The notes below the pieces were generated by a model. The model saw only the letters and a program-made list of their open reading frames with translations. It made no database searches and was not told the DNA's origin. A stretch of DNA of 64,000 nucleotides from Acidicapsa dinghuensis (GTDB lineage: Bacteria > Acidobacteriota > Terriglobia > Terriglobales > Acidobacteriaceae), in NCBI RefSeq assembly GCF_025685685.1, contig NZ_JAGSYH010000004.1, forward strand, positions 248,001 to 312,000, given 5' to 3'. Shown here one piece after another: positions 22,890-38,849 of the stretch; position 1 is the stretch's first letter, and every line of letters begins with the position of its first letter. Position numbers and translations under genes: made by a program.

Positions 22890-22897
22890 GATCTGAG

Positions 22898-23192: not shown

Positions 23193-23233
23193 GGCACTAT
23201 AGTGCCGACATGGACAAGCACTATAGTGCTTGT
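23193..23233. promoter_or_regulatory. Two GCACTATAGTGC operators between XRE gene and ECF sigma gene
   Basis: GGCACTATAGTGCC at 23193-23206 and ACAAGCACTATAGTGCTTGT at 23214-23233 are perfect palindromes with centres 24 bp apart. They share the 12-bp core with the 48-bp palindrome at 22842-22889. They lie in the divergent intergenic region upstream of the XRE gene (start 23158) and of the sigma factor gene (start 23322). Confidence 0.75.
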
Positions 23234-23321
23234 TTAATACGTTCACTGATTCCCTATTCTGATTTGTTGAACACCCCGCTCAAACAACCTTCTGCATGCT
23301 TGATGACGTACCGAGGCCTGC

Positions 23322-24002
23322 GTGACATCCGATAGTGCAGCATTGCTCCCAGGTGCACTAACTCGCCTAGTGGACGGCGAGGTCACTGACTCCTGTTCGA
23401 ACTTGGAGATTAGCCATGGTGAGCCAAAACGCTCTGTCGTTGCACCACACCAGATCCGATCCGACGACGCGCTGCTTGCCGAGGTTCAATCTGGGTCGAA
23501 GGAAGCGCTAGGATTGTTATTTCGCCGTTATCGCCCTCCCGTGGTGCATATAGCTCGGCGCATCTTAAGAGATGCATCCGAAGCAGAAGACCTGTGTCAG
23601 GAGGTCTTCGTATACTTGTTCGAAAAGGCAAAACTCTTCGATCCGAGCAAAGGCAGCGCCTCCACCTGGATCATCCAGATCGCCTACCACCGGGCGATGA
23701 ACCGCAGGGCATACCTGGCGCATCGGCAGCACTACACCGCTCAGGAGTTTGATGAACAACGGTTCGGCCCGAGTCCGCGGTCATCGATCGACGAGCTGAC
23801 TGCCCGGAATCTTCTGAACCGCCTCCGCGGACAACTCACTCAGGACCAAAGGCAAACTCTCGAACTTCATTTCTTTGAAGGCTATAGCCTCAAAGAAATC
23901 GCCGAAAGGACGCACCAAAAGCTCGGTAATGTCCGGCATCACTTCTATCGGGGCCTGGAGCGGCTTCGCTCCAACCTTTTCCCCCCAAACACATCTGAGT
24001 GA
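23322..24002 (+). CDS. ECF-type RNA polymerase sigma factor (lasso locus)
   Basis: The 226-residue protein has a variable N-terminal extension (about 45 residues), then region 2 (LLFRRYRPPVVHIARRILRD, then EDLCQEVFVYLFEK and STWIIQIAYHRAMNRR) and region 4 (LTQDQRQTLELHFFEGYSLK, then EIAERTHQKLGNVRHHFYRG). The start is a GTG at 23322. The stop overlaps the next gene's GTG by 4 bp, coupling it to a zinc-finger anti-sigma factor, and a TonB receptor and lasso isopeptidase follow. It is the likely inducer of the uptake side of the locus. Confidence 0.92.
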   Translation: MTSDSAALLPGALTRLVDGEVTDSCSNLEISHGEPKRSVVAPHQIRSDDALLAEVQSGSKEALGLLFRRYRPPVVHIARRILRDASEAEDLCQEVFVYLFEKAKLFDPSKGSASTWIIQIAYHRAMNRRAYLAHRQHYTAQEFDEQRFGPSPRSSIDELTARNLLNRLRGQLTQDQRQTLELHFFEGYSLKEIAERTHQKLGNVRHHFYRGLERLRSNLFPPNTSE

Positions 24003-25300
24003 GAGAATTGGTACGAAAACAGCTCGCGAGCACAGCTGCCTCTGTGAATCCTCAACTCCATGACGAATTTGTAGCTCTCCGTGCCCTTTACTACTCGGGC
24101 GAGATCTCCGATGAGGAGTGGGCTCTGCTGCAAATCCACATGTCCTACTGCGACTCGTGCCGAAAGACCTTCCTCGAATATCAGAAGATTCATGCCGATG
24201 TCATTCCGGCAATGGCCGCAGTGGTAGCGTGGGATTCGACAGAGGCTCCCGCAGAATCCGCCGCCTCGCTAGACGCTGCCGAACAGCGGCTGATGCGCCG
24301 GCTTGATTCTGCCTCTACCCAAGAGACGCGTCCGGAACCGCGACGATTCGTCGGGCGGTCTTCGCGCTTGCTGATCGCCGTCTGCGCCCTCGCGATAGCC
24401 GGCCTGACCGGCATATTTTTCATTCGCGCGCGAAATCATTCGATAGCACAAGGCTCCGGGGCGCCTCCTCCGCGCTACCAGCCGGCCCAGTCGGTATCGA
24501 CGACTCCCGATAGCGCAGCCCAGCAAGATCTCGAGCGCACTCAGGCAGAGACGGCAAAGCTCCGGCAACAGCTGGACGCCTCGGCGAATCGCGTCAGGCA
24601 GGCCAATCGGGCGCTCGACCGCGTTGAGCAACAGTTGGACTCCGAACAAACCGCGCGCGGACAACTGAACCAAGAGAAAGAGCAATTGAAGCAGCAACTC
24701 CTCGCGATGCAGGCTGAGATGGAGTCCATGCGGACGAGAGCGGTCTCTACCGGAACAGAGGCGACCGAACAGGCAAATCGCATCGCGTTACTGGGCTCGC
24801 AGGTCCACGAACTCAGGGCTTCCCTCGATGAGAAGGATGTGGCTCTCAACGAAAAGGACCGAATGCTGGCCCTCGACAAGGACTTTCTGGCTCACGATCG
24901 AGATATCCGCGATCTGATCGGAGCCCGGAATCTCTACATCGCCGACATCTTCGATACAACGGAGAGCGGGAAAACCGCAAAGCAGTTCGGACGCATCTTC
25001 TATACCAAGGATCGCTCGCTCGTATTCTACGGATTCGACCTCGACAGTCAGGCAGGTCGTAAGCAGAACGTGTCCTACCAGGTCTGGGGCAGTGGCAGCG
25101 ACCGGCCTGCCCCCGTAAGCCTTGGTTTGTTCTATCAAGACGATACGCACAAACGGTGGGTGTTACGTTGCAACGATGCGAAATCGCTTGCGAGATTAGA
25201 TATGGTTTTCGTTACCGTAGAGCCGCCCGGCGGGAGCAATCGGCCCACGGGCAAACCGCTACTGCGGGCATATTTACAGATTCAACCGAATCACCCTTGA
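23999..25300 (+). CDS. Anti-sigma factor: zinc-finger, one TM, periplasmic coiled coil and RskA-like C-terminus
   Basis: The 433-residue protein shows the zf-HC2 anti-sigma motif H47-x3-C51-x2-C54 in its cytoplasmic part and a single membrane helix at about 123-142. A periplasmic coiled coil follows (about 170-300, heptads rich in Q, E, L and R), then a C-terminal domain (SLGLFYQDDTHKRWVLRCND, then FVTVEPPGGSNRPTGKPLL) like the anti-sigma-K C-terminal domain. The GTG start overlaps the sigma stop (GTGA). It should hold the sigma factor at the membrane and release it on an envelope signal. The coiled coil is a plausible signal-relay segment. Confidence 0.88.
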   Translation: MRELVRKQLASTAASVNPQLHDEFVALRALYYSGEISDEEWALLQIHMSYCDSCRKTFLEYQKIHADVIPAMAAVVAWDSTEAPAESAASLDAAEQRLMRRLDSASTQETRPEPRRFVGRSSRLLIAVCALAIAGLTGIFFIRARNHSIAQGSGAPPPRYQPAQSVSTTPDSAAQQDLERTQAETAKLRQQLDASANRVRQANRALDRVEQQLDSEQTARGQLNQEKEQLKQQLLAMQAEMESMRTRAVSTGTEATEQANRIALLGSQVHELRASLDEKDVALNEKDRMLALDKDFLAHDRDIRDLIGARNLYIADIFDTTESGKTAKQFGRIFYTKDRSLVFYGFDLDSQAGRKQNVSYQVWGSGSDRPAPVSLGLFYQDDTHKRWVLRCNDAKSLARLDMVFVTVEPPGGSNRPTGKPLLRAYLQIQPNHP

Positions 25301-25388
25301 TCGGTTTCAAATTTCTTTTGGTACACATTGGGACCACCGGCGGTAGACAGAGTGGACACAATTCACTCTCAAGCTTTCGGAGCGCCGC

Positions 25389-28300
25389 ATGAAGTATGGA
25401 TTCATTCTCCTATTCTTGTTTTTAAGTTTTTCCATTGCCATTGCTCAATCCACCAACGCCACGATCAGTGGTGGCGTGACGGACCCCTCTGGCAAATTCA
25501 TCCAGGGTGCGGACGTTGAGATTGCAAACGATGCGACAGGGGTCGTTTATTCGTCCAGGACAAATGGTTCGGGAATGTACGTTGTTCCCATCCTGCCGCC
25601 CGGACACTATCATGTGCAGATTTCGAAGCCAGGGTTCAGAACCATCATCAAGGCGGATATCGTTCTGAATGTTCAAAGCGCGTTGGCGCTGAATTTTGTG
25701 TTGCCGGTCGGCAGTACCTCGGAAAGTGTGACGGTTGACGCCGATTCTTCGTTGATCAACACTACGGATGCTTCCGTCAGTACGGTTGTCGATCAGAAGT
25801 TCGTCAAGAATATTCCTCTCAATGGCCGAAGCTTCCAGGACTTGATTTCTTTGACTCCTGGAGTTGTCACTCAGAGCCCACAGCAGGGCGGAAGCGTTCA
25901 GGCTCAGGGCGACTTCAGCGTCAATGGACAGCGTACCGAGTCGAATTACTACATGATCGACGGCTTATCCGCCAACACCGGGGCAGGCAGTGCCAATGGA
26001 ACCGGTGGATTCGGACAGACAGGATCGATCGCCGCATCGAGTGCGTTGGGAACAACGCAGAATCTGATCTCGGTCGATGCCCTTCAGGAATTTCGGGTTT
26101 CCAGTTCAAGCTACTCTGCCGAATATGGAAGAATGCCGGGTGGGCAGTTCTCATTCTCCTCGCGGTCCGGGACGAATACCCTGCACGGAACAATATTCGA
26201 CTACCTCCGCAATGATTTCTTCGACGCCAACGACTGGTTCAATGACTATTACGGAATCCGCGAACCAGCGCTTCGTCAAAACGACTTCGGAGGTACAGTG
26301 GGTGGTCCGATTCTTCTTCCACGTCTCTACGACGGCCGATCAAAGAGCTTCTTTTTTGTCTCGTATGAGGGGCTGCGACTGGTTCAGCCGACGAACGCTT
26401 CAGCGCAGTATGTGCCTTCGCTGTCCCTGCGCCAGGACCCGGCTTTGAATGCTGCCATGCGATCCCTTCTCAACGCCTTTCCTCTGCCGACGGGAAATGA
26501 GATCGAACTCGCGGGAAATCTCAGTGGTCTTGCTTCCTTTGTGGAGGCGTACTCATTGCCATCGAGCATCGATGCGACGAGTGTACGATTCGACCGTGTC
26601 ATCTCCGACAAGGCCACCGCGTTCTTTCGCTATAGCTACTCGCCAACCAGCATCTCGAGCAGAAATCTGTCTTCCCCTGGGCAGACGCAACAGAACAGCG
26701 AGACATTCACCGCCGGATTGGACAACTCTTTCAGCACAAGAATCAGCAATGACTTCCGGATCGGTTTCGCCGCGAGCCGGGCGGTTGCGCTCTTTGGACT
26801 CGATTCCTTCGGAGGAGCTGTTCCTGTTGACTTGCAGACCGAAGTGGGTGCGCCAGGAGTCTACGACACCTACAGCTATTTCCCGTACATCAGCATCAGC
26901 GGAGTGGGAAGTGCATTCATCGAATCGTACAAGGGCGGAAACAGCCTTCGACAATGGAACGTCACCGATGCGGTTGCGATATCCCTGGGCCGGCATCAAC
27001 TACGCCTGGGCTTGGACGAACGTCACCTCACCAGCCCACTCGGCCCTGCAGCGATCTCGGTCTATCCCTATTTCTTCAGTCCCAATGATTTAGCAGCGAG
27101 TCAGACTTCCTATCTGTTTCTCCGCAAAACCGATCCTGCGAGGCCGACGTTCAATGAGTTCTCCGCTTTCATCCAGGACGAATGGCAGATCAGACCCGAG
27201 ATCACCGTGTCCACAGGCGTACGGTGGGACATAAACCCTGCGCCGGGCGCAGCGGATGGGCACCCTCCGTACACTGTCCTAGGCAACGTCTTTGATCCGG
27301 CTTCTCTTACGTTGGCGCCTCGAGGAACGCGTTTATGGAACACATCGTGGTACAACTTCGCGCCTCGGCTCGGTGTGGCCTGGAAAGCACGGAGTGCTCC
27401 CGGATGGGAATCGGTCGTTCGTACTGGCGGAGGAGTGTTCTTTGATACCGGAAATCAAGTCGGCGCCTATGGCTTTTCGGGACTTGGATTTTTGGCATCG
27501 AATACTCCTGCCAATTCGACAATGCCGTTTGCTGCCTCAGACTATGACTTCACGACAGCTGTGAGCGCGCCCTATACGGATAGCTTCGTCTATGCGTATC
27601 CGCGGCATATGCAGCTGCCGTACTCTCTGCAGTGGAACCTTAGCCTTGATCAGGCCCTCGGCAGATCACAGGCACTCACCATTTCTTACCTTGGCTCGGA
27701 TGGCCGCCGTTTATTGCAAGAGCAATATCGTTCCGTAAACTCGTTCAACCCGCTATTCGGAATCATCTACTACTACCCGGAAGGCGTCACCTCCAATTAT
27801 CAAGCGCTTCAGGTTAAGTTCCAACGGAATGTCGTGGCAGGGCTTCAGGTGCTCGGCTCTTACACCTGGTCCCATGCTCTGGACTTCGGTTCGACGACCA
27901 CTTCTTTGCCACTCACCTATGGCAATGCCGATTTCGACGTGCGCCACAACCTCCAGGCGGCGCTCAGTTGGGACATTCCGCGCACGAATCAAGGATCGGC
28001 ACTGAAATGGTTCACAAACGGCTGGGGAGTCGACGGACGCCTCAATGTCAGGTCGGCATTTCCCATCACGTTGACCGGAAACGTCATCGTCGATCCGACC
28101 GGTTCCTATTCCTACGGCTCGGTGAATTACGACTCTTCGAAACCTGCCTATCTCTATGGCTCGCAATATCCCGGCGGCCGCATCCTGAATGGCGGTCCCA
28201 ACGTAGCGGAAACAACGGCTGCATTCAGTCTGCCAACCGGTACGGATACGGGCAATGCGCCGCGTAACTTTGTCCGCGGGTTTGGAGCACATCAGATCAA

Positions 28301-28532
28301 CACCGCCATCCGACGGGATTTTCCGATTCATGGAGATATTCACCTGTCCTTTCGCGCCGAAGCCTTCAATGTCTTGAATCAGCCGAATTTCGGGTACATC
28401 GATCCGACCCTGACCGACTTGCAGTTCGGAGAAGCAATCAAGATGCTGAACGCGAGTCTCGCCTCCATGAGCTCCCTCTACCAGCAAGGAGGAGCGCGCT
28501 CGATGCAGTTTTCTCTCAAGCTGGGATTCTGA
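25389..28532 (+). CDS. Oar-like TonB-dependent receptor (lasso locus)
   Basis: The 1047-residue outer-membrane protein has a signal peptide (residues 1-20), a carboxypeptidase-regulatory domain (TISGGVTDPSGKFIQGADVE, about 25-105) and a plug domain (SVTVDADSSLINTTD, then VKNIPLNGRSFQDLISLTPG, about 115-300). The barrel ends in LKLGF with the terminal aromatic typical of BAM substrates. It lacks the STN signalling domain of FecA-type receptors. It sits between the sigma/anti-sigma pair and the isopeptidase, the position held by lasso-peptide receptors in proteobacterial loci, so uptake of the mature lasso peptide is the favoured role. Confidence 0.88.
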   Translation: MKYGFILLFLFLSFSIAIAQSTNATISGGVTDPSGKFIQGADVEIANDATGVVYSSRTNGSGMYVVPILPPGHYHVQISKPGFRTIIKADIVLNVQSALALNFVLPVGSTSESVTVDADSSLINTTDASVSTVVDQKFVKNIPLNGRSFQDLISLTPGVVTQSPQQGGSVQAQGDFSVNGQRTESNYYMIDGLSANTGAGSANGTGGFGQTGSIAASSALGTTQNLISVDALQEFRVSSSSYSAEYGRMPGGQFSFSSRSGTNTLHGTIFDYLRNDFFDANDWFNDYYGIREPALRQNDFGGTVGGPILLPRLYDGRSKSFFFVSYEGLRLVQPTNASAQYVPSLSLRQDPALNAAMRSLLNAFPLPTGNEIELAGNLSGLASFVEAYSLPSSIDATSVRFDRVISDKATAFFRYSYSPTSISSRNLSSPGQTQQNSETFTAGLDNSFSTRISNDFRIGFAASRAVALFGLDSFGGAVPVDLQTEVGAPGVYDTYSYFPYISISGVGSAFIESYKGGNSLRQWNVTDAVAISLGRHQLRLGLDERHLTSPLGPAAISVYPYFFSPNDLAASQTSYLFLRKTDPARPTFNEFSAFIQDEWQIRPEITVSTGVRWDINPAPGAADGHPPYTVLGNVFDPASLTLAPRGTRLWNTSWYNFAPRLGVAWKARSAPGWESVVRTGGGVFFDTGNQVGAYGFSGLGFLASNTPANSTMPFAASDYDFTTAVSAPYTDSFVYAYPRHMQLPYSLQWNLSLDQALGRSQALTISYLGSDGRRLLQEQYRSVNSFNPLFGIIYYYPEGVTSNYQALQVKFQRNVVAGLQVLGSYTWSHALDFGSTTTSLPLTYGNADFDVRHNLQAALSWDIPRTNQGSALKWFTNGWGVDGRLNVRSAFPITLTGNVIVDPTGSYSYGSVNYDSSKPAYLYGSQYPGGRILNGGPNVAETTAAFSLPTGTDTGNAPRNFVRGFGAHQINTAIRRDFPIHGDIHLSFRAEAFNVLNQPNFGYIDPTLTDLQFGEAIKMLNASLASMSSLYQQGGARSMQFSLKLGF

Positions 28533-28600
28533 GTCGCCATCGTTAAGCTCTACACATCTCCCTACCCATTCTTCGATTGACCAAAGGATAACTGCGACCC

Positions 28601-30916
28601 ATGAAAAGCCTCGTATGGTGGCTGTTGCCAATCTGTGTGTGTTGCCGAGCGATGCAGGCTCAGACGGAAAAAGACCATCGCTTCTCGGTGGCCTTGTCGA
28701 TTGAAATGACCACCTTCAGCGATCCCTATACCAGAGATCCGGGGGCGACGAGCAAGGTGTCGCCCGATGGCCGCTACTTCGTGGTTGTGACAACAAGAGG
28801 AATGCTCTCGTCGAATCGGTTGGAGTCGCGTGTCCTGGTGTATTCGTCCCGGCAAGTGCGGAACTATCTGCAGGAGCCGGGTGGAGTTCCGCCGATGCCG
28901 CACCCGCTGTTCACTCGATCCAAGGTGCCGGAAGCGTTGCAGAGCAACTCGTACGGGTCGCTCATCACCAGCGTTCAATGGGCGAGCGATTCCGCTTCCC
29001 TTCTGGCGCTGGTAGAGATGCCTCAGGGACGACGCCATCTTTATCGAATATGCGTCACCTGTCACAGGCCAGCGACAGATTTGACTCCGCAGCCCGAGGT
29101 CGATGTCCAGAGCTTCAGCGAGTCGTCCGGAACCATCGCATACGTGGTTGAATCTCAGATCGCGAATCACAAGGGTAATGCGATCGGTCAGCCAATCAAC
29201 GCAAGAGCGTCGGTGATCACCGGCACCACACTGTTTCAGTTCCTGGAGCCGGAACGCTATCCCGATCTCGAGAATGTTGGTCCTTCGTATGAGCTTTGGA
29301 CTCGTCGGAATGGGCAAACATGGAAGGTAATGGGAGACCATGGGAGGTATTTCCCAAATGGAGCCAGGAGTTTTCATTTGGCTCTGTCGCCGGATGGAAA
29401 GTACTTGATCGCTGCCCAGCCTGTCGAAGAGATCCCCGAGTCGTGGTCGAATTACAAGACCTCGCTCACCATGTTCAGCTTCCGACCTGATTCTCTCCGA
29501 GATCTTGATCGATCAGGAAGATCGCGAAATTGGCCATGGCAATACGTCATCCTCGATCTTGAGAAAAAGACGTCTCAGCCCCTCGTTGCGGCACCCTCGA
29601 GCTTTTTGAGCAATAACGGAGACGCCTTCGAGGCCGTTTGGTCGAAAGATGAGAAGCGCATTCTCTTTACCGGCACTTACCTGCCGCTTGAGAGGTCGGC
29701 TTCCGATGTGGATACCGACCTGCGCAACCCGTGTGCCGCCGCAATCTATGAGATCGCCGAAAGACGAGCCTCCTGCATCGCCTTCACCCACTTTCCAAAG
29801 GAGTATTTACGGCACACGGAGTTCGAAGACTCGGACCAGGAGGTGCGCCTGGATTGGTTGAGAGATGGCGCCATCCATACCGAGCTCTATCAGCAATCAG
29901 GGCGCGCTTGGTCGCAGCAAACGGAGAGGGCTGACACAAGACAGGAAAACAGGCTCACCCTGTCATTGCATCAAGATCTCGATTCGCCACCAGAATTGTG
30001 GGCAGCCGATAACGTCACTCACACCAGCAAACCGCTGTTGGACCCAAATCCTCAGGTGCGGCGAATCCACTTCGGCGAAGCGAGAGTCTACCGATGGAAA
30101 GACAGGAGTGGGTACGTTTGGCGAGGCGGTCTCGTGCTTCCACCCGACTACGTGCCGGGGTGCCGCTATCCACTGGTTATCCAGACACACGGGTTTTATA
30201 ACGAAAAAGAGTTCCTTGCGGACGGGTCCTTCACCACGGGATTCGCGGCACAACCGTTAGCAGCCGCAGGCATGATCGTTCTGCAAATGGAGGACCGCGC
30301 GGACCGCTTTACTTATCCCCCCACGGAGGAAGCGGCGCTTGAGGTAGCAGGCTTCAAATCGGCCATCGAACATCTCAAAGCCGATGGGTTGATTGATGAA
30401 GCGCGAGTCGGAATCATTGGGTTCAGTAGAACTCACTGGTATGTCGAAAGCGCATTGATTGATTGTCCTCATTGTTTCAAGGCAGCCACACTGATCGATG
30501 GCGTCGATCAATCGTATGTCTCAGACATTCTCTTCGCAGCCAACATGCCCTCGACCGCGATGGAGGATAAGGCGGCAAATGGAGGCAAGCCGTTCGGCCC
30601 GGGGTTGCAGCAATGGGTCGAACGTGCTCCGGGCTTCCATCTGGATAAGATTATGACTCCGATCCGGATCGAAGCCATCGGAAAGCTATCCGCGTTGGGC
30701 GAGTGGGAGATTTACTCTCTCTTGACCCGGCAAGGCAAGCCGGTCGATTTTATCTACATTCCCGACGGGCAACACATACTTCAGGCTCCGCTCGACAGGT
30801 ACGCTTCGCAACAAGGGAACGTAGATTGGTTCCGCTTTTGGCTAAATGAGGGTCAAGCGCACATCGATGCGAAGGAATCGGCGCGATGGGAGAAGCTTCG
30901 TAAGATGCTTCCTTGA
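28601..30916 (+). CDS. AtxE2-family lasso peptide isopeptidase
   Basis: The 771-residue protein begins with a signal peptide (to about residue 21) and continues with a beta-propeller-like region (SPDGRYFVVVTTRGM, SVQWASDSASLLALVEMP, LALSPDGKYLIAA). It ends in an alpha/beta-hydrolase domain with nucleophile Ser609 in G-F-S-R-T and His725 in PDGQHIL, followed by GNVDWFRFWLN. The GFSRT nucleophile elbow and the H-x-x-x-P plus VDWFRFWL end are the signature of AtxE2-type isopeptidases, which hydrolyse the isopeptide bond of lasso peptides, rather than of ordinary prolyl oligopeptidases. It converges with the biosynthetic operon, its stop 68 bp from the precursor's stop. RBS AAAGGA. Confidence 0.9.
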   Translation: MKSLVWWLLPICVCCRAMQAQTEKDHRFSVALSIEMTTFSDPYTRDPGATSKVSPDGRYFVVVTTRGMLSSNRLESRVLVYSSRQVRNYLQEPGGVPPMPHPLFTRSKVPEALQSNSYGSLITSVQWASDSASLLALVEMPQGRRHLYRICVTCHRPATDLTPQPEVDVQSFSESSGTIAYVVESQIANHKGNAIGQPINARASVITGTTLFQFLEPERYPDLENVGPSYELWTRRNGQTWKVMGDHGRYFPNGARSFHLALSPDGKYLIAAQPVEEIPESWSNYKTSLTMFSFRPDSLRDLDRSGRSRNWPWQYVILDLEKKTSQPLVAAPSSFLSNNGDAFEAVWSKDEKRILFTGTYLPLERSASDVDTDLRNPCAAAIYEIAERRASCIAFTHFPKEYLRHTEFEDSDQEVRLDWLRDGAIHTELYQQSGRAWSQQTERADTRQENRLTLSLHQDLDSPPELWAADNVTHTSKPLLDPNPQVRRIHFGEARVYRWKDRSGYVWRGGLVLPPDYVPGCRYPLVIQTHGFYNEKEFLADGSFTTGFAAQPLAAAGMIVLQMEDRADRFTYPPTEEAALEVAGFKSAIEHLKADGLIDEARVGIIGFSRTHWYVESALIDCPHCFKAATLIDGVDQSYVSDILFAANMPSTAMEDKAANGGKPFGPGLQQWVERAPGFHLDKIMTPIRIEAIGKLSALGEWEIYSLLTRQGKPVDFIYIPDGQHILQAPLDRYASQQGNVDWFRFWLNEGQAHIDAKESARWEKLRKMLP

Positions 30917-30943
30917 TCCTCTCACGAGGCATGATCCGAGGGA

Positions 30944-30967
30944 TGGAACGAGCGCGCGATCGTTCCA
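30944..30967. terminator. Hairpin between convergent isopeptidase and precursor genes
   Basis: TGGAACGA (30944-30951) and TCGTTCCA (30960-30967) form an 8-bp stem with an 8-base GC-rich loop, in the 68 bp separating two convergent stops. There is no clear T-run, so a bidirectional terminator is only a fair guess. Confidence 0.45.
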
Positions 30968-30984
30968 CCCTTCCGGTTTAGAGG

Positions 30985-31131
30985 TTATTCGTCGGCCGGA
31001 TACGCCGGTGTGGTTTCCGGCTGCATTGGCCCGGTATGCGCATCCCCATTCGGGCCGTCTTTGCCGCCCTGAATTGATTTGGTGGCATCGAAGACTTCAA
31101 TGAGTTTGGGTGCTTCGTACTTCCTGGTCAT
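30985..31131 (-). CDS. Lasso peptide precursor (A)
   Basis: A 48-codon gene with AAGGAG 8 bp before its ATG at 31131. The leader contains Y5-E-A-P8-K-L10, the Y-x-x-P-x-L motif bound by RRE (B1) proteins of lasso systems. Two core starts are possible. With 11 residues after Leu10, as in many precursors, the core would be G22 to E48 (27 residues), closing a 9-residue ring G22-D30. If the usual Thr at position -2 is T17, the core starts at S19 with a 7-residue ring to D25. The tail is rich in Pro (P35, P38, P42, P45) and Thr, has one Tyr (Y44) and is acidic at the end (D47, E48). It is the last gene of the minus-strand operon, not the first as in most lasso loci. Confidence 0.85.
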   Translation of the reverse strand: MTRKYEAPKLIEVFDATKSIQGGKDGPNGDAHTGPMQPETTPAYPADE

Positions 31132-31157
31132 GTTGTTCTCCTTTCTTTGGGGAATAT

Positions 31158-31196
31158 CTGCGTGAAGAAAGATCGAACGATCTACTCCTCACGCAG
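31158..31196 (-). promoter_or_regulatory. Hairpin between cyclase and precursor genes
   Basis: CTGCGTGA (31158-31165) pairs with TCACGCAG (31189-31196); inside it AGATC (31170-31174) pairs with GATCT (31179-31183) around a GAAC loop. The structure overlaps the cyclase stop codon and lies 27 bp upstream of the precursor start. It could be an mRNA processing or stabilising element raising precursor mRNA, or a partial terminator. Confidence 0.5.
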
Positions 31197-33084
31197 AGCC
31201 TGATGGCCGATTCGAAGTCGGCGAAAATTCGCAGGAGGTTTTATTGGAGTCTTCTCTCCGGAGCCACAACTCGAATTGCACAGCTCGAAGCATGGGAGCG
31301 AGCCACATCTCGATCTGATGAGTATTCGCTCCCATGAGGGCACTCCGCAGCAGATCCACATCGACGAAGTTGACTTTGCTTAGTGCAGAATTCGCGAACA
31401 GCGATGCGATCCTCTCCCGATCGCGCGAGAAGCGGATCCTTAGGCTGCGAGCCACGAAGGCTTTCCTTTTTCTTTCCAGAATCTCGACTGGAACGATACC
31501 GCGCAAAGCGTTACGCATCAGGAAACGTCTGCGGCCAGGCTTGAGTAGCCGGCTCCGCGGTACTCGCAGAAGGTAATCCACCAGATCGCGATCGAGGTAC
31601 GGATAGCGATACTCGCGGCGGTACAGCACCGTCGGAAACCGATGCGGCAGAGTCTCAAGCATGTTCCACCAGGTAACGCAATTGTCCAGGGCAGACGGCA
31701 AATGGCCGAATTCCACGTGGCGTAAATCATCTGGCTCCAGGCACCGGGTACTTGGTAGTCGGGATTTAAGAATCCAGGGTGGGTTGTGATGGAACTGCTG
31801 GAATCGCGACACATAGAGCTTTCCTATGAAGGCTGCTGTGTGCGCGAGAGTGTAGATGAGAGGCGATCTGGAAACGAGGCTCCACGAAAGCGCTTGCGTC
31901 CATAGCGCCCAGAAACGTCCTCCGAAGGCGTAATCCGCCAATTCTGGAAGAGGGTTGGGCGGTCCCCCCAGAAGCTCATCCCCTCCGATTCCAGAGAGTA
32001 TGACCCGATAGTTCCCTTCCTCGATCTGATCCTCGAATGCCTGCTCTCTCGATAGCGCTGATGCGTCTGCTCCCGGTTGTAAATACACTGAGTCTGGCAC
32101 TCCATAGCCGTACTCCGCGCGAGAAACGTCAATATGGAAACCCTGCTTGGCTCTTTGCCGCTCCACAGCGATAAAGAATGGGGTCTCATTCCAATCCGGT
32201 TCCGAGTCGTCGTAATACGATACCGTGTCCAGCAAATCAGAAGATGAAGCCCCCGGTTGATTACGCACGTGATCGGATACGCACACGATCGATGAGGAGT
32301 CCATGCCTCCGCTCAACTCAGCGAGGATCGGCGCGCCGGGACCCGTGCGCCGCAGGACCGCCTGTTTGAACAGCGACAGGAAGTGATCGGCATATTCCTC
32401 ATCGTTTCGATAGTGGATTCTTTCCCGTGTTTTCGAGCTCCAATGAGGTCGCTGCTGTACCTCTTGACCACGGATCTTTAGATAGTGAGCGGGGCTGACG
32501 GATCGGATACCCAGGTAAGGCGTGGAATCGCGGGTAGGCTGCGCAGTGAGGTAGCGCAGCGCATATGCCTGGTCGAGATCCCTCGTACATCCATCAACGA
32601 GAAGCGTCTCTAGATACGTACCCCAGGTGATGGCTTCGCCGGCAATCTCGTAATAAAGGTTTCGCGTACCGGCATGATCTCGTGCCAAGTACAGAGCATT
32701 CTCTCGCTGAAACCAGACTGCAAGAGCCCAATCCCCAACAAATCGAGAGAAGCACATTTCACCCCAACGATGAAAGGCGGAGAGCACGATAGATGAATCC
32801 GAGGCATTTCGGTTCTCAACATCGAGTTGCTCGCACAGATGCTTTCGATTATCGAGTCGTCCATCGAAGACGATCATGTCACCTTGATTGTTCGAAAGCG
32901 GCTGCGCTTCAAGACTGGAGTGTTCATGGGTGTGGTACGGCTGAAACCCCATCCCCACCGTTCCTGCGGTCCCAAGAAATGTACCATCAGGCGCATACCG
33001 TCGCGTGGCGTGAGCCAAACGCTCCAAATGGCTCCCCATTTGAGGATCCGCTTGCTGCTTCGAGATGCCGAATAGGATACTCAT
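31189..33084 (-). CDS. Lasso peptide cyclase, asparagine-synthetase-like (C)
   Basis: The 631-residue protein has an N-terminal glutamine-amidotransferase-like domain in which the catalytic Cys is replaced (MSILFGIS, Ser at position 2), so no glutaminase activity is expected. The C-terminal synthetase domain has the ATP-pyrophosphatase loop S258-G-G-M-D-S-S. LasC enzymes adenylate the Asp/Glu side chain and close it on the core N-terminus, forming the macrolactam. It starts 9 bp after the B2 gene (RBS GAGGCG) and is followed by the precursor. The degenerate amidotransferase half is normal for LasC. Confidence 0.93.
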   Translation of the reverse strand: MSILFGISKQQADPQMGSHLERLAHATRRYAPDGTFLGTAGTVGMGFQPYHTHEHSSLEAQPLSNNQGDMIVFDGRLDNRKHLCEQLDVENRNASDSSIVLSAFHRWGEMCFSRFVGDWALAVWFQRENALYLARDHAGTRNLYYEIAGEAITWGTYLETLLVDGCTRDLDQAYALRYLTAQPTRDSTPYLGIRSVSPAHYLKIRGQEVQQRPHWSSKTRERIHYRNDEEYADHFLSLFKQAVLRRTGPGAPILAELSGGMDSSSIVCVSDHVRNQPGASSSDLLDTVSYYDDSEPDWNETPFFIAVERQRAKQGFHIDVSRAEYGYGVPDSVYLQPGADASALSREQAFEDQIEEGNYRVILSGIGGDELLGGPPNPLPELADYAFGGRFWALWTQALSWSLVSRSPLIYTLAHTAAFIGKLYVSRFQQFHHNPPWILKSRLPSTRCLEPDDLRHVEFGHLPSALDNCVTWWNMLETLPHRFPTVLYRREYRYPYLDRDLVDYLLRVPRSRLLKPGRRRFLMRNALRGIVPVEILERKRKAFVARSLRIRFSRDRERIASLFANSALSKVNFVDVDLLRSALMGANTHQIEMWLAPMLRAVQFELWLRREDSNKTSCEFSPTSNRPSGSA

Positions 33085-33093
33085 GCGTTCGCC

Positions 33094-33471
33094 TCAGAAG
33101 CGTTCCAGGACTTGGTAGATTTCGGACACATAAGGCTTGTCGTTCACAATCACGCTGTTGATCTCCACCCAGGCGTGCGACTTAAACGGCACGAGTTGCG
33201 CGCCAATGACCAACTCCGCACGCCATCCGTAACGTCGTAGCAGCAACGTGGTAGCGCACGAGCGTTGTAGGCATTGGACTCGCCTGAAGTAGAAGACACA
33301 CGCATAGTCCATCGCTCGACAAAGATCTCCGCTGGTGACGAAATCGGAACCGTGACTAGCTCGTACCGGCACACTTCGGACAAGCCGATGCAGGTCCTTG
33401 AATTCCGCAAAGCGCATCATGATTTCGAAGCGAAAGAGAAGCAACCAGCTCTCAAGAACGCGACGTAGCAT
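33094..33471 (-). CDS. Lasso leader peptidase, transglutaminase-like (B2)
   Basis: The start at 33471 is set by AAGGAG just upstream; the gene overlaps the preceding oligopeptidase by 20 bp. The 125-residue protein matches the stand-alone B2 form of McjB with the transglutaminase-like triad Cys67 (CLQRSC), His99 (SHAWVE) and Asp111 (VNDKPYV). With the RRE protein (B1) it removes the leader from the precursor before cyclisation. Length is normal for B2 proteins. Confidence 0.92.
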   Translation of the reverse strand: MLRRVLESWLLLFRFEIMMRFAEFKDLHRLVRSVPVRASHGSDFVTSGDLCRAMDYACVFYFRRVQCLQRSCATTLLLRRYGWRAELVIGAQLVPFKSHAWVEINSVIVNDKPYVSEIYQVLERF

Positions 33472-35485
33472 CGAGATCTCCTTTTGGCAGAGGGATGGCA
33501 AGTTCCCGGCACAGGAAGGCAATGCGGCGCGCAAGGGCCTGCACGCGCACTGAGAGGGGTAGCAGGGGTGAATGTCCGCGCTCTTCGCTGTAGTCCACAA
33601 TCACGGGCGATCTCTGGCTGTCTCTCTCTTGCAGGGCTGCGGCCATCTTCCGGACGTGTGCCGGATTGCAGCGATCGTCTTTGTCACCCGCAACGAACAG
33701 GATGGGTGGATAGTCGACACTATCCGAGATATGGTGATACGGCGAGTAAGCGAAGAGAGCACGGAAGTCTTCGGGGTCTTCAACAGTTCCGTATTCGTGT
33801 CGCCATTGGATGGCGTGATCGAAGGATTCGTAATGAACCATATCAAGCAGTGGCGCAATCGATAGCACCGCACCAAACAGGTCAGGGCGCTGGATCATCG
33901 CCGTTGCCACCAGGAGACCGGCATTCGAACCTCCAAATATTGCGAGTTGACGAGTGCTTGCGATTCGTTGACTGCAGAGCCACTCAGCCGCGGCTAGGAA
34001 ATCATCGAAACAAACCTGGCGATTCCTGGCGCGCCCGGCGTCATGCCATGCTCTGTCAAACTCCCCGCCGCCGCGAATATGTGGTACCGCGAGGATGGCG
34101 CCGAGCTCCATCATGATGGTGATCAGCACCGAGAACCGCGGCTTCGTGGAGACGCCAAAACCACCGTAGCTGGTCATGATGATCGGCGACGGACGAAGGT
34201 AGACCTCCTCGCTCTGTGCTACCAGCGTCAGCGGAACAAGGACGCCATCCTTGGATTCAAAACACTCTTCGCGTATCTGGAGACGCCGTACGCGATACCC
34301 TTGATATTTCTGATGCCAGAGTGTCGATGCCCCGGTCTCCGCATCGTACTCGTAAATTGCCGGAGCCATGTCATAGGACTCATGGCTGTAAAGTAAGCCT
34401 TTGGCGTGTTGCGTGTGACCAGGAAAGAGCTCTACCGTTCCATGAGTTGGGAGATCAATCGAGGCGGTTTGCTGCCCTTGGGTGCCCCAGACTTCAATCG
34501 CTGAACCATCGCGCTTCTGGCGGCTCACATAGATTCGGTCCCGTGTGATCACAACTTGCCGGATTGGAAATTCCGTCTCCGGGATCACCGTTCGGATCTC
34601 CTCACCGTTCGTAGACAGTTCGACTATCGTTGCATTCCTAGAAGCCCCTGCGGTGAGCACCAAGATTCTGTCTTGGCAAAAGATTGGACCATATGGGAGT
34701 CGTCGATTCCTGAAAACTGTTGCCCAGTTGCACACCTCGCTCATCGAAGCCACCCAGAAATCCGCGAACCGCTCAGTGCCTTGCTGGCGAAGACAATAGG
34801 CGCCGAGGAGCAGGTCGTTGGCGATCAATACGAGTCGACTCCCAACGGTCCGTGGGGCGTGGAATAGAACCTCGTCCTCGCCTCCTTGCCCCAATTGATG
34901 AAGACGGATGAAGTGCTCATTCGGCGAGTCCTCGGTATCCTGCGCATAGAGGCAGCCGCTGCTCTCGCGAGTGAATGCAAGCCCTCTGGGATGTCCCATC
35001 GGAATACAGTCGGGAAAGGCTGAGCCACGTTCGACGTCGACAATATGAATTTCCTTGCGGTCGCCGCCGCCTCTTCCCACTTCGATTGCCACCAGCTTCG
35101 CATCTTCCGAAACGCGGTGTATTCCGACCGAGGTGAATAGGCCGTCCCGTGAGGGGTCAACGAGCAATCGTTCCTCCGTTGTGCCGGCCTCCCGGACGTA
35201 GATACTGCCTTGTTCTTCATACTTGCGCCGCATACGGTAGAAGTATCGATCTGCCACCCGACTAGGTTGATCGACGACTTCCACATCGAGATAATCTCGG
35301 ACCCGACGCTCCAAGCACTCAAAGTCCGGATATCCGTCGAAATAGGCCTTACATCGACGCTGTTGCTCGCGGATCCAGGCTTCGGTCTCTGGCATGCCTC
35401 TTTCTTCGAGCCAACGGTAGGGATCACGCACCGTCACTCCATGAAGCGTCTCTTCGAACGCGGGCATCGCTACGCTCAGCGGCAT
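33452..35485 (-). CDS. Prolyl oligopeptidase (S9A family) inside the lasso operon
   Basis: The 677-residue protein has the S9A N-terminus (LHGVTVRDPYRWLEE), a seven-bladed propeller region and a hydrolase domain with nucleophile Ser520 in G-G-S-N-A-G, acidic D-K-D-D-R at about 601-605 and His638 in ERGHSP. No signal peptide is visible, so it should be cytoplasmic. Such enzymes cut short peptides after proline. It is co-transcribed with the kinase (10-bp overlap) and B2 (20-bp overlap), so a role in the lasso pathway is likely: trimming the proline-rich tail or degrading the linearised peptide after uptake. It lacks the GFSRT elbow of AtxE2-type isopeptidases. Confidence 0.9.
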   Translation of the reverse strand: MPLSVAMPAFEETLHGVTVRDPYRWLEERGMPETEAWIREQQRRCKAYFDGYPDFECLERRVRDYLDVEVVDQPSRVADRYFYRMRRKYEEQGSIYVREAGTTEERLLVDPSRDGLFTSVGIHRVSEDAKLVAIEVGRGGGDRKEIHIVDVERGSAFPDCIPMGHPRGLAFTRESSGCLYAQDTEDSPNEHFIRLHQLGQGGEDEVLFHAPRTVGSRLVLIANDLLLGAYCLRQQGTERFADFWVASMSEVCNWATVFRNRRLPYGPIFCQDRILVLTAGASRNATIVELSTNGEEIRTVIPETEFPIRQVVITRDRIYVSRQKRDGSAIEVWGTQGQQTASIDLPTHGTVELFPGHTQHAKGLLYSHESYDMAPAIYEYDAETGASTLWHQKYQGYRVRRLQIREECFESKDGVLVPLTLVAQSEEVYLRPSPIIMTSYGGFGVSTKPRFSVLITIMMELGAILAVPHIRGGGEFDRAWHDAGRARNRQVCFDDFLAAAEWLCSQRIASTRQLAIFGGSNAGLLVATAMIQRPDLFGAVLSIAPLLDMVHYESFDHAIQWRHEYGTVEDPEDFRALFAYSPYHHISDSVDYPPILFVAGDKDDRCNPAHVRKMAAALQERDSQRSPVIVDYSEERGHSPLLPLSVRVQALARRIAFLCRELAIPLPKGDLDATSRS

Positions 35486-36810
35486 AGTATCTCCGAGAGA
35501 TTGGGATTCTCTGCCGCTCGATCCATATGCCGTGCCAGGCTCCGTGCATAGCTTTTAAATTTCGCATCGTGGTTCTTGCTTTTGATCCAGTCGCCTCTGC
35601 CGTGCAGGTATGCGTAGATAGCGAGCAACGGCATCAAAGCAAGCGCTTCTTCGATCGCGGCAGCGCTGAGCCGGTGCGACCACGTTTGCCGATAGATTGA
35701 GCGAACTTGGTCGCTGTGATCCGGGTTCAACCGGCAGAGACGCTCACACGAGAGAAAGGGATTGCTGATCGCCGCTTCGCTCCAGTCCGTGAATACACAA
35801 CGGGTTCCATCGTCGAGGATGTTACCTGCACTCAAATCGTTGTGGATCAAGGTCTCCGGGATACCGAGAGATTCCAAGCGCTCACACGCTTCGTGCAGCA
35901 TGTCCGCTAACCCATGAAGGCGTTCTCGACTGAGGGGAGCCACTTTGGTCGAGCTCTGCCGTGCCATTTCGATGACCAGAAACTCCGTGATCGGATCGAT
36001 GTGGCTTCTCAAAACCGGAAGCCGCAAGTCGAACGCTCCAGCAGCCAGCAGCACATCAGGACAGTCCGCTGTCTGAAACTGAAGAGATGCAAGCGTTCTT
36101 GCAGCGTACGTCAACACATGCTCCGGTGGGCGATCCGCCAATGGAGTCCCCGCTTGCTCCATCAACCAGGCATTCCAGTCGTTCCTGGCCGCAACCAGAG
36201 GTGGCAACGAATCGGGAGACAACTCGGAAAGACAAAGAGTGATGGCAAATTCATGATCGTTAGGTGGCGCGGTGGCTTTCAACCAGTAGCTGTCGCCGTC
36301 CTCCATGCGGAACCGGATGAGCGCGAAACCGCGGCCCGCGTTCCACTGCTCGATCTCGTTTCGTGGCGAGAGGGTGCGGCCCGTCGTCCCTTCCACCCAG
36401 ACGGCAGCCTCCTCGATCCACCCAAACCGTGAGAGTGCGCACTGACTCGTACCCTTCAGTATTTCAGCAACATTGGCAATCTCTTGCTCAGACAAGTCGA
36501 AACTGGAGAGCTGATCGAACGCCAACTTCGCAAACCCTCGATTTGGAGTCTCCCCGGCCAGCAGTTCGGCAACAGCGCTGCACACGTTGCCATTGTCCGC
36601 CGTGACAAAATCCAGGATCAGGACTCGCAGCCCCCAGGTCGCATGAATCGCTCTGCATAGTTGTTGTGCGGGACGCATCCGTGAAGGAATTGACATGTGG
36701 GGCAACGAATAGCCATTGATCGTTTCTAGCGCCAATATGGCTTTGGAAACATCATCCACGAGGATGATCCGGTACTCCATCGAATCGGCAATTTCAAGCG
36801 ATTCATCCAT
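35476..36810 (-). CDS. APH-fold kinase with Nudix-like N-terminal region (lasso operon)
   Basis: The C-terminal half of this 444-residue protein carries the aminoglycoside/choline kinase-type catalytic motif H-N-D325-L-S-A-G-N330 and the metal-binding D342-W (TDWSEAA), with a possible nucleotide-binding Lys in SYWLKATAP. Residues about 10-80 (YRIILVDDVSKAILALE, then PAQQLCRAIHATWGLRVL) resemble a Nudix-type fold without an intact Nudix box. It lies between PqqD (12-bp gap, RBS GAGGTGG) and the oligopeptidase. Kinases that phosphorylate a lasso peptide are known for paeninodin-type loci but belong to the HPr-kinase family; an APH-type enzyme here would be a different solution. Phosphorylation of the peptide is inferred from context. 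Confidence 0.85.
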   Translation of the reverse strand: MDESLEIADSMEYRIILVDDVSKAILALETINGYSLPHMSIPSRMRPAQQLCRAIHATWGLRVLILDFVTADNGNVCSAVAELLAGETPNRGFAKLAFDQLSSFDLSEQEIANVAEILKGTSQCALSRFGWIEEAAVWVEGTTGRTLSPRNEIEQWNAGRGFALIRFRMEDGDSYWLKATAPPNDHEFAITLCLSELSPDSLPPLVAARNDWNAWLMEQAGTPLADRPPEHVLTYAARTLASLQFQTADCPDVLLAAGAFDLRLPVLRSHIDPITEFLVIEMARQSSTKVAPLSRERLHGLADMLHEACERLESLGIPETLIHNDLSAGNILDDGTRCVFTDWSEAAISNPFLSCERLCRLNPDHSDQVRSIYRQTWSHRLSAAAIEEALALMPLLAIYAYLHGRGDWIKSKNHDAKFKSYARSLARHMDRAAENPNLSEILCR

Positions 36811-36822
36811 CGCGATACCACC

Positions 36823-37077
36823 TCAGTGAATCAGAAGTTGTTCCGCCATCAAGGCGCTGATGAACTGGCGGACATCCCGCTCCAGAGCGTCTACGTGCTC
36901 ACCAGTTTCACGTGCGAGCTCCGCAGCGATCTGTCCGACCTCATCCCCGCGTTCGAGAGCTGCCCAGACATAGGCTCCCGTGGAATTCAACGTCGAGATC
37001 CTGCCGCGTCTGGTGTCGAGGATCACGGCACCATCGGCGTTTGCAACTGTTCGCAGATGTGAAGCGTCGCGTCTCAT
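36823..37077 (-). CDS. PqqD-like RRE protein (B1) of the lasso system
   Basis: The ATG at 37077 follows a good RBS (GGGAGG), giving 84 residues. The sequence has the winged-helix PqqD pattern: GAVILDTRRGRISTLNSTGA, then VWAALERGDEV and VGQIAAELARETG. These proteins bind the precursor leader through its Y-x-x-P-x-L motif and deliver it to B2. It is the first of the tightly packed biosynthetic genes. Confidence 0.92.
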   Translation of the reverse strand: MRRDASHLRTVANADGAVILDTRRGRISTLNSTGAYVWAALERGDEVGQIAAELARETGEHVDALERDVRQFISALMAEQLLIH

Positions 37078-37289
37078 TGAATAACCTCCCGCAGGCAGCG
37101 TCGTGACGACGCCGACAATGAACAAGAGCTTACCCTCAATGAAGGAAACGGAAAGAGAGAATGTTTATATTGGCCAAACTTACTTTCGATCGATGTTTTT
37201 AGGGGTGTTAGGACGATTGAATGTCGTTGTAATGGTGCAGCGATCGATGTCGTTTTCGGCCAGATTTACGGCACGCATGCTTGCATTTT
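37078..37289 (-). promoter_or_regulatory. Leader/promoter region of the lasso biosynthetic genes with CGATCGATGT repeats
   Basis: This is the only sizeable gap in the minus-strand block. CGATCGATGT occurs twice in the same orientation (37187-37196 and 37241-37250, 54 bp apart), each followed by a T-rich run. A promoter for the pqqD-to-precursor genes probably lies here. The repeats may be binding sites, possibly for the LexA-like protein encoded just upstream; no -10/-35 could be fixed. Confidence 0.4.
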
Positions 37290-38849
37290 CTACACTGGAA
37301 CGGCAATGCCGGAAACGCGATTGAGTTGTGCAAGCGAATCGATACGGAACGTTTGCTTCACTTCGCCGACTCTGTCTGCGAGTAGCGCGAATTGGTCACC
37401 GTCTCGCGCCAGATGGCCGCAAATCATCTCTAATCCTTTCCGCAGTACATAGATCGGCCGCGACCATCCATACCGTCTTCCCTCTCTTCTCGTATCCGGG
37501 ATAGAGGAAACTCTTTCAAGGAGCAGCCACGATCCAGGGCCAATCGCTGGGTCAAGATCCTTGATCCCACCACCCTGAGATAGCCGTATGACACGATCGT
37601 CCCACCGCTGTAGTTGTGGAAACTTGATCGACAAAAGAGGGGGCCATTCGCCGAACTCTTTGCGACGGGCCTCCCATACATCGACAGGCGTGGGCAGATG
37701 CGCATTGCGATCGGCATCCGACGCCTCCTCCAACGACGTTGCGTTCAGGAGAGTCTCGAGCGAGAAGCGGCCTCGATCCGAGAACCACGAGCCTCCAGTT
37801 CGAAGAGCGTCCGTATAGCGCGCGACGTTCGCAAGCGTGAGATGAAGGAGTGCATTGACGTGTGGATCGGAGGACGTATCGCTGCGATACCGTCGCTCGC
37901 TTCTTTCACTCAGCTTGGCCTGCAATTCCGTCCTGAGGAATTGCTGAATGAACTCCTTCTCTTCCTTGGATCTCTTAAAACGCCTCCGCTTCGTCGCCAA
38001 TAGGCTGTCCCGTGTGACATGCTCCCATGGAAGAATGAGGTCCGCACCCCGTGCGGCGTGCGGCAGGGGCCGCAAGGACGGATGATCCGGGACAGGAAGG
38101 TTTATAGCGAACATTCGAACTCGTCCCGCAATTCGCACTGCGCCGGGGTAAGCGAATTCCTCTCGTGCGAAGTAGGCTCTCTCCGTACTGAATAACCGGA
38201 GCGTTCCGCGTGTGACGACGCAGTGACTGCAGCGATATCCATTCGCAAATTGAAGCAAATAGATTGCTCGTGGATTTGGAAGTGCCTTCTCGTTTTCGCC
38301 GATAGGTTCTACGAGAGCCATAGCTCCGGGAGGAATGCTCGATCCCAGGCTATCTTCCGTTCCAACATGCACATAGAAGGCACCGGGCTTCTTCCAACCG
38401 TCTTCCTCGATCACTCGTATCGGAGTTTCTTTTTGCCACTCCAACACGAGATCTCGCAAGGAAGCATCCACACCAAACGATTCATGAGAGGCAAGGCGCG
38501 CAGGCAGATCGACGGGCAGGTCGCGGTTGAATGGGTACGACTCGAAAATATGTGTACGTCCGCCATTCAGTCTCAGATCAAAATCTCTGATCGCTTCAAG
38601 ATCATAGCCAAACAACCGATGAGCGCCTTCCAACGTCAGCCAACAGATTTCTGCAATCTCAAGCAAAGTTTTGAGGGTTGGGTGTTCGCTGGTTCGCGGC
38701 AGATTGGACAACAGATCCCTTATTACAACTTCTCTTCGTTCATACGCACGGATCTCACGCTCGTTCGATGGTTTGATCCGACGGTGGAGCTCTCGAATAT
38801 GAACCAGGGCGTCAATGATCGCGCTGCGCGGAACAGCGTGGAATACCAC
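37290..38849 (-). CDS. Unknown protein with two LexA/S24-like domains, first gene of the lasso block
   Basis: The 519-residue protein starts at a GTG (38849) preceded by AAGGAG. Residues 1-90 are helical. A stretch near 175-255 (IPPGAMALVEPIGENE, then YCSH-type strands, LFSTERAYFAREEFAYPGAV and RIAGRVRMFA) resembles the beta fold of LexA/S24 regulators. A second, similar stretch ends the protein (IGPGSWLLLERVSSIPD, then YVLRKGLEMICGHLARDGDQ and NRVSGIAVPV). In neither copy do I see the Ser-Lys dyad, and no clear helix-turn-helix is visible. It might be a regulator or scaffold for the lasso operon. The fold call is tentative; the gene itself is sound by length and RBS. Confidence 0.75.
   Translation of the reverse strand: MVFHAVPRSAIIDALVHIRELHRRIKPSNEREIRAYERREVVIRDLLSNLPRTSEHPTLKTLLEIAEICWLTLEGAHRLFGYDLEAIRDFDLRLNGGRTHIFESYPFNRDLPVDLPARLASHESFGVDASLRDLVLEWQKETPIRVIEEDGWKKPGAFYVHVGTEDSLGSSIPPGAMALVEPIGENEKALPNPRAIYLLQFANGYRCSHCVVTRGTLRLFSTERAYFAREEFAYPGAVRIAGRVRMFAINLPVPDHPSLRPLPHAARGADLILPWEHVTRDSLLATKRRRFKRSKEEKEFIQQFLRTELQAKLSERSERRYRSDTSSDPHVNALLHLTLANVARYTDALRTGGSWFSDRGRFSLETLLNATSLEEASDADRNAHLPTPVDVWEARRKEFGEWPPLLSIKFPQLQRWDDRVIRLSQGGGIKDLDPAIGPGSWLLLERVSSIPDTRREGRRYGWSRPIYVLRKGLEMICGHLARDGDQFALLADRVGEVKQTFRIDSLAQLNRVSGIAVPV

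Follow-up and report, generated by a model that had tools for sequence, protein, structure and literature searches.

How is the ring of a lasso peptide closed, and on what does a kinase encoded among its biosynthesis genes act? Both questions are raised by a locus of Acidicapsa dinghuensis (GCF_025685685.1, contig NZ_JAGSYH010000004.1). The DNA analyzed, here called the window, is the whole stretch of 64,000 nt at positions 248,001–312,000 of the forward strand, and the locus occupies 23322–38849 of it. Two operons face each other. The minus-strand operon, for biosynthesis, is transcribed in the order LexA-like gene, B1, KIN (a kinase), POP (a prolyl oligopeptidase), B2, C and precursor A, and thus holds B1, B2 and C together, as lasso peptide gene clusters require. 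The plus-strand operon, for uptake and linearization, has the order extracytoplasmic function (ECF) sigma factor, anti-sigma factor, Oar-type TonB receptor and AtxE2-like isopeptidase (IsoP). The locus probably represents a module, conserved among acidobacteria, for the production of a modified lasso peptide and its re-uptake; in this module Lys would set the ring and KIN would mark the tail. Comparison of related loci shows a shared gene content and order, Ile or Val at leader position -2, a fixed spacing of Lys to Asp/Glu, a Y-x-x-D-E tail and a kinase-linked Ser/Thr. Apart from gene content and order, these features were overlooked in an earlier note on this DNA.

The conserved lysine and the ring

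The precursor and its parts are as follows.

30985..31131, minus strand: precursor A, 48 aa, leader MTRKYEAPKLIEVFDATKSIQ followed by core GGKDGPNGDAHTGPMQPETTPAYPADE
31069..31131, minus strand: leader MTRKYEAPKLIEVFDATKSIQ, Ile at -2 and Gln at -1; register fixed in 86/86 precursors
31060..31062, minus strand: core Lys3, the conserved Lys of the spacing comparison
31042..31044, minus strand: core Asp9, presumed ring acceptor; Lys3 to Asp9 is 7 residues, inclusive
31012..31014, minus strand: core Thr19 (position -9), candidate phosphorylation site; Ser/Thr at -9/-10 in 80/80 precursors with KIN
30988..31002, minus strand: C-terminal tag YPADE; Tyr(-5), Asp(-2) and Glu(-1) conserved

Lasso mining usually assumes that residue 1 bonds to an Asp or Glu at 7–9. 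The Y-x-x-P-x-L leader described earlier for this 48-residue precursor is found as YEAPKL, and AAAGGAG precedes the gene. The usual Thr at leader position -2 is replaced by Ile. Thr(-2) is not required, because leader cleavage after Ile(-2)-x has been proved for BsfA of Bradymonas; Ile/Val(-2) was already reported for Acidobacteriaceae in the same study (Duan et al., PMC10368454, accessible text). In the window, B1/B2 would cut after Ile-Gln.

We compared 86 precursors from 67 related loci, in three sets of 53, 24 and 9. Set 1, from 41 loci, was chosen among small open reading frames (ORFs) after C, and the residue at -2 was not a criterion. Set 2 holds the 24 new precursors of a KIN-profile scan after removal of previously seen loci; picking for sets 2 and 3 used a pattern allowing I/V/L/A at -2, or the tail. 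Excluded before counting were L131, L136 (which overlaps L096), repeats within L145–L184 and L192–L208, loci ending before A (e.g. L061 and L160), leaderless small ORFs and ORFs antisense to IsoP. L079 and L080 are edge loci, yet they are counted in the 86.

The register from Y-x-x-P to position -2 is fixed throughout, with Ile in 68 precursors and Val in 18. An Asp or Glu lies at 7–9 from residue 1 in 26/86 (18/53 in set 1). Counted from Lys, an Asp or Glu lies 7 or 8 residues away (inclusive) in 85/86, with 7 in 55 and 8 in 30. Within these 85, Lys is found at core positions 2–9 and the acceptor at 8–16, past residue 9 in 70. The spacing holds in 53/53 precursors of set 1 (shuffled cores 8.5 ± 2.5, maximum 18 in 2000; non-redundant 44/44), in 24/24 of set 2 (shuffles 3.5, maximum 11 in 5000) and in 8/9 of set 3, where L192 is the exception. 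Other residues of set 1 fall well behind at the same spacing, Gly being next best (22/53) and Pro reaching 15/53. A composition effect is rejected by the shuffles and by the failure of these other residues. In the two-precursor loci L080, L102 and L201 the Lys–acceptor distance stays constant while the junction–acceptor distance varies. Twelve contig-edge precursors outside the 86 (L211, L212, L214, L222 and L229; KIN status undeterminable there) show the spacing in 12/12. Four KIN-less precursors, belonging neither to the 86 nor to the 13 'ordinary' ones described below, come from L060 (two; Lys2–Asp8, 7 residues), L111 (Lys3–Glu10, 8 residues) and L127_A2, which has no Asp/Glu at 7–9. Among KIN loci the 8-residue distance occurs in 23/52 precursors with POP and 2/27 without, a difference confounded by clade.

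The window core itself also meets the usual rule (G1, D9), and the remaining lasso parts are ordinary. An ordinary lasso peptide with a Gly1–Asp9 ring, in which Lys has no special role, would fit these facts and the 26 precursors that share the arrangement. It is nevertheless very unlikely: 60/86 relatives fail the ordinary rule, while all except one obey the Lys spacing.

Control and sister groups show where the spacing begins and ends. Eight of 17 pattern matches with a T(-2) leader in the same family were judged to be precursors, and the Lys spacing is found in 0/8. Five of them have Asp at 8 or 9 (L055, L057, L059, L064 and L066; L057 has no C in its stretch). In the other three (L076, L094 and L110, also with no C in the stretch) Asp/Glu at 7–9 is absent; here B1–B2 pairs stand beside the T(-2) leader peptides, perhaps as another type of ribosomally synthesized and post-translationally modified peptide (RiPP). 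A class-wide search with the IsoP profile, together with the fetched loci, gave two further groups. The 'ordinary' group (n=13, grouped by us) has Gly1 in 13/13 and Asp/Glu at 8 (9 precursors) or 9 (4 precursors); no KIN is seen in the fetched loci, of which L235 and L239 have the upstream part cut. In the double-cyclase group, a sister class, B2-C-C-A faces IsoP (L220, L221, L224, L226, L227, L237 and L238; L223 is cut off). Its first C carries SGGRDS and its second mostly SGGMDS or SGGLDS, the tail is Y-x-D-W-E, and Lys lies 8 or 9 residues from Asp/Glu in 16/16 listed precursors, from which the near-duplicates L221, L223 and L238 are omitted. Neither KIN nor POP is seen in the fetched loci of this group. 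Lys occurs in KIN-less groups and so predates KIN. In the KIN class, Lys is preceded by a varying number of residues, as though residue 1 were no longer part of the ring.

Given the fixed distance, the simplest reading is that the ring runs from Lys to the acceptor, Lys taking part through its side-chain amine or as residue 1. Cyclase C would activate the Asp/Glu 7–8 residues from Lys, and Lys rather than residue 1 would set the ring. In the window this would be a Lys3–Asp9 ring, with Lys probably supplying the amine. Our tentative reading of the precursors is that the internal Lys side-chain amine may close the ring and leave a free N-terminal extension of 1–8 residues; the part of ring-forming residue would have passed from Gly1 to Lys, in a change accompanied by a dedicated kinase of aminoglycoside phosphotransferase (APH) fold that marks the tail. 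By our own count, Lys side chain to Asp over 7/8 residues makes a ring of 26/29 atoms, close to the 25/28 of ordinary 8/9-residue rings; a Lys at 9, as in the sister class, would require 32 atoms.

Protease trimming could also make Lys residue 1 and yield an ordinary ring of 7–8 residues (8–9 in the sister class), and the lengths 7, 8 and 9 counted from Lys are indeed the known lasso ring sizes (PMC10368454, accessible text). We regard this as unlikely. Trimming would have to remove 1–8 residues of varied sequence, the residue preceding Lys is unconserved (17 kinds among 53), and the Ile/Val(-2) register does not change in any of the 86. KIN loci that lack POP have spacers of 1–6 residues too, and no other dedicated protease is recognized at the loci. 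POP as the trimmer up to Lys is not supported, in view of those same spacers.

Lys may instead be a recognition residue that points the cyclase to Asp/Glu, with the N-terminal amine closing rings of 8–16 residues. Retention of Lys3 in 11/13 'ordinary' precursors, in which a Gly1–Asp/Glu8–9 ring fits, agrees with such a role. The idea is improbable to us, as 70/85 precursors would need rings of 10–16 residues, outside the 7–9 range given in the accessible text of PMC10368454.

The tail, the Ser/Thr site and the kinase

The tail is as constant as the lysine. Glu(-1) is present in 86/86, Asp(-2) in 84/86 and Tyr(-5) in 84/86, after removal of a single trailing E/Q behind DE in three precursors. 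A Ser or Thr stands four or five residues ahead of the tail Tyr in 80/80 precursors with KIN and in 7/20 KIN-less relatives. In the former its position is -9 in 67/80 (shuffles 20 ± 4); the remaining 13 have it at -10. The KIN-less loci L102 (three precursors) and L111 (one) keep the Tyr tail and have the Ser/Thr in 0/4, and the double-cyclase class has it in 7/16. The association between KIN and Ser/Thr gives a Fisher p of 1e-11, which is overstated by kinship. Among the contig-edge precursors Ser/Thr is found in 9/12, all exceptions belonging to L211. KIN, guided by the YxADE tag, would phosphorylate the Ser/Thr that precedes Tyr by four or five residues, Thr19 in the window.

The fold of KIN itself allows another target. 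Among solved structures it comes closest in fold to kinases of small molecules (choline, macrolide and corramycin), and KIN-like genes also occur in stretches that lack B2 or C (L135 and L137–L143), so that KIN might act on a small molecule, in self-resistance or signaling, rather than on the precursor. We find this rather unlikely, given that KIN lies ahead of B2 in 40/43 loci and immediately after B1 in 39, and that Ser/Thr at -9/-10 accompanies every KIN-bearing precursor and none of those of L102 and L111. In seven of these eight stretches an ECF-type sigma gene adjoins the KIN-like gene.

POP, judging by its gene family, would trim the peptide at some site. As a test of tail cutting by POP, residues -6/-7 were compared, and no clear difference was seen between precursors with and without POP.

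Several observations weigh against phosphorylation of the tail and a ring set by Lys. L079 has the Ser and no KIN is listed for its genome; the contig of this locus starts partway through POP. In L119 and L172 neither distance is kept, the L172 acceptor standing at 15/10 with a Lys distance of 8/7, and in L192 the distance from Lys to Asp is 9. 'Ordinary' precursors keep Lys3 in the absence of KIN, and 5/13 have the 7/8 spacing as well, so that Lys may serve other than in ring closure. The loci are kin, and their counts cannot be treated as independent events; near copies occur in sets 2 and 3 (L182/L183; L176 is like L065), some of set 2 closely resembling one another or members of set 1. Selection of precursors from the small ORFs was by eye, with the rule already known for sets 2 and 3. 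Roles assigned to POP, uptake and regulation are read from gene families alone.

Gene content of the window and related loci

Genes of the window were assigned by Pfam/NCBIfam profile searches.

23322..24002, plus strand: ECF sigma factor (PF04542 1.5e-18, PF08281 2.7e-12)
23999..25300, plus strand: anti-sigma factor with zinc motif, RskA_C and coiled coil (PF10099 4.9e-09)
25389..28532, plus strand: TonB-dependent Oar-type receptor, probable uptake (PF25183 3.2e-128, PF13620, PF07715)
28601..30916, plus strand: IsoP, AtxE2-like lasso isopeptidase (NF033523 1.4e-46)
31189..33084, minus strand: C, Asn-synthetase-like lasso cyclase (NF033535 1.1e-76; SGGMDS loop)
33094..33471, minus strand: B2, transglutaminase-like leader peptidase (NF033537 2.9e-20, PF13471)
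33452..35485, minus strand: POP, prolyl oligopeptidase (PF02897/PF00326)
35476..36810, minus strand: KIN, APH-fold kinase with N-terminal alpha/beta domain (PF01636 5.8e-05)
36823..37077, minus strand: B1, PqqD-like leader-binding protein (PF05402 2.5e-15)
37290..38849, minus strand: LexA-like protein, presumed regulator (predicted model pLDDT 81, LexA C-domain 6a2s_A)

Each gene named in the earlier note's complete lasso locus with facing uptake and linearization genes is found here, and the order is kept in relatives, including other Acidobacteriaceae. The locus start it quoted, 23193, lies 129 bp ahead of the sigma ORF. KIN and POP overlap by 10 bases, POP and B2 by 20. The start of B2 is more probably the inner ATG at 33471 (the open frame extends to 33600) and that of B1 the inner ATG at 37077 (open frame to 37125).

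B2 scores 73 bits against NF033537, over the cut-off of 33. C scores 258.8 bits against NF033535, under the 525-bit cut-off; its SGGMDS loop is invariant among the relatives compared (A2). The six matches of the C profile in PDB are asparagine synthetases, beta-lactam synthetase and hydroxyamidotransferase, with no solved lasso cyclase among them. Its N-terminus reads MSILFG and lacks the Cys of active types, in agreement with the inactive amidotransferase proposed earlier. The best solved relative of POP is 2bkl (E 8.5e-99, residues 11–672), with propeller and hydrolase domain (S9A). Oligopeptidase B was considered for POP and rejected, the best solved relatives being prolyl endopeptidases.

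KIN scores 23.4 bits against PF01636, slightly above the cut-off. Its predicted model has a pLDDT of 92.8, and the top match in the structure search is 3dxq_A (Z 18.5, residues 126–444). K178, E187, D325 and D342 are invariant among the relatives compared (A1 and A3). Residues ~1–125 may be Nudix-like, going by the order of strands and helices in the model alone; the fold-search matches are taken up by the kinase domain. The LexA-like protein (519 aa) has no Pfam match at E 0.01. Its model aligns with 6a2s_A at Z 5.6 over 95 residues (rmsd 2.6 Å), below the trust level of the tool; for the 'double LexA-like' gene described before, the model offers a single, weak LexA-C-like match.

On the plus strand, the zinc motif HxxxCxxC of the anti-sigma factor is HMSYCDSC, by eye, and the receptor combines CarboxypepD_reg, plug and beta-barrel. 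IsoP scores 159.6 bits against NF033523, under the 400-bit cut-off. AtxE2 (5txc/5txe) is its closest solved relative, and the GFSRT described earlier is present; Ser609 and His725 are invariant in 24 relatives. From the families of these genes, released peptide would enter through the TonB receptor and then be linearized by IsoP, and control of the uptake operon would fall to the ECF sigma/anti-sigma pair. Coordinated export, proposed before, finds no D gene, as the ABC-transporter ATPase profile PF00005 matches nothing anywhere in the window. Just outside the uptake operon, 22519–23158 (minus strand) encodes two small helix-turn-helix proteins, XRE-like by eye.

For distribution, 250 genomes sampled from the window's family were searched with profiles for B2 (NF033537) and KIN; B2 is found in 73/250 and KIN in 41/250. 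Of 90 B2 places 87 were fetched, the window itself and the weak G105:C91 and G092:C97 being omitted. Ten genes were mapped by iterated profiles in these 87 loci and the window, 88 in all, in stretches of at most 20 kb, with genes lost at contig or stretch ends counted as absent; the B2 frame of L126 is not recognized. KIN is present in 43/88 B2 loci, together with POP in 26, IsoP in 34, TonB receptor in 36, sigma factor in 25, LexA-like gene in 24 and C in 41; in the three loci where it does not precede B2 it follows C. The earlier view that the kinase, the oligopeptidase, the LexA-like gene, the precursor at the end and the order of the genes are unusual is thus not supported. All ten genes occur in nine loci including the window, one of which (L074) has POP in two frames. 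That kinase, POP and LexA-like gene are chance neighbors is rejected by the conserved gene order.

A rapidly built tree of the C proteins (90 rows), which carries long-branch flags, divides a group of 23 rows (22 classical, one with IsoP) from one of 67 (SH-aLRT 100), and the latter holds all 58 KIN loci. KIN matches at E <= 1e-20 occur in 5/199 phylum-sampled genomes, each in the window's family; in 349 class-sampled genomes strong matches are also found in two other families. The KIN-profile scan of genome contigs gave 43 loci, with three weak Streptomyces matches unused. They include Edaphobacter aggregans DSM 19364, Silvibacterium bohemicum S15, Granulicella, Terriglobus albidus, Acidobacteriaceae TAA 166 and Candidatus Acidiferrum typicum.

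Another lasso locus of this class lies in the window genome at ~735–747 kb of G000:C12 (L096, L136), with two precursors ending in SYDLDE and SYDVDE and an ABC ATPase match at 749226–749675, ~3 kb upstream of B1. L131 is apparently decaying: its KIN is truncated, its C is split in two and its tail has become SGYVANA. L133 and L134 have LexA-like gene, B1, KIN and B2; no C was found in them, and the B2 frames appear broken.

Comparison with known systems

Should Lys indeed set the ring, the cores and masses predicted for these acidobacterial clusters would have to be revised. Both ends of the product are unfixed, so the core minus 18 Da is too narrow as a mass expectation. Monoisotopic masses calculated for cyclized forms of the window peptide are 2691.151 for the full core (2771.117 with phosphate), 2577.108 for a core beginning at Lys (2657.074 with phosphate) and 2115.928 after loss of YPADE (2195.894 with phosphate). 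The precursor set allows the choice of amine by a lasso cyclase to be probed directly, and YxADE is a candidate recognition tag for a RiPP kinase.

In proteobacterial clusters of the isopeptidase type, the isopeptidase faces the precursor and a TonB receptor lies near. The window shares with AtxE2-family clusters the lasso A/B/C genes, this facing isopeptidase and the nearby receptor. It differs in the split B1/B2, Ile/Val(-2), KIN, POP, the LexA-like gene, the YxADE tail and the Lys spacing. Among solved kinases, LxmK (LxmKY) of the class V lanthipeptide lexapeptide, whose target is a RiPP precursor, matches the KIN fold (9dk2, Z 15.7, below the top match). LxmK works with a lyase partner and lanthionine chemistry, for which no counterpart is recognized at the window locus.

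The gene layout is known earlier from metagenomic clusters (PMC9064862, PMC12670498, accessible text). The acidobacterial biosynthetic gene cluster (BGC) 482.1 has B1, an aminoglycoside-phosphotransferase-like 'kinase', B2, C and two A; a Gly–Asp ring was assigned to it, and the expected products were undetected in E. coli (PMC9064862). A ring set by Lys, if true, may help to explain this missing product. Three Group II BGCs carry a prolyl oligopeptidase placed between their core genes (PMC12670498, accessible text). BGC 482.1 and the POP-bearing Group II clusters probably share a class with the window locus; the accessible texts of both papers, precursor figures aside, state no Lys rule or tail. 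Neither was found in searches of an open-access library, although supplements (e.g. Fig. S14 of PMC10368454) may show them. The 2026 review PMC13352647 mentions no Lys-closed lasso ring in its accessible part, and the accessible portions of the searched papers do not link an APH-like kinase fold experimentally to lasso peptides.

The closest parallel in chemistry is Bradymonas BsfA/BsfK, where an Ile(-2) leader is likewise found and the lasso precursor is phosphorylated by a cluster kinase aided by B1 (PMC10368454, accessible text). There the kinase has a weak HPr-kinase resemblance and acts on Ser3 within a Gly1–Asp8 ring. KIN is not HPr-kinase-like, given its APH match and choline/APH kinase fold, and its candidate site lies near the C-terminus of the precursor.

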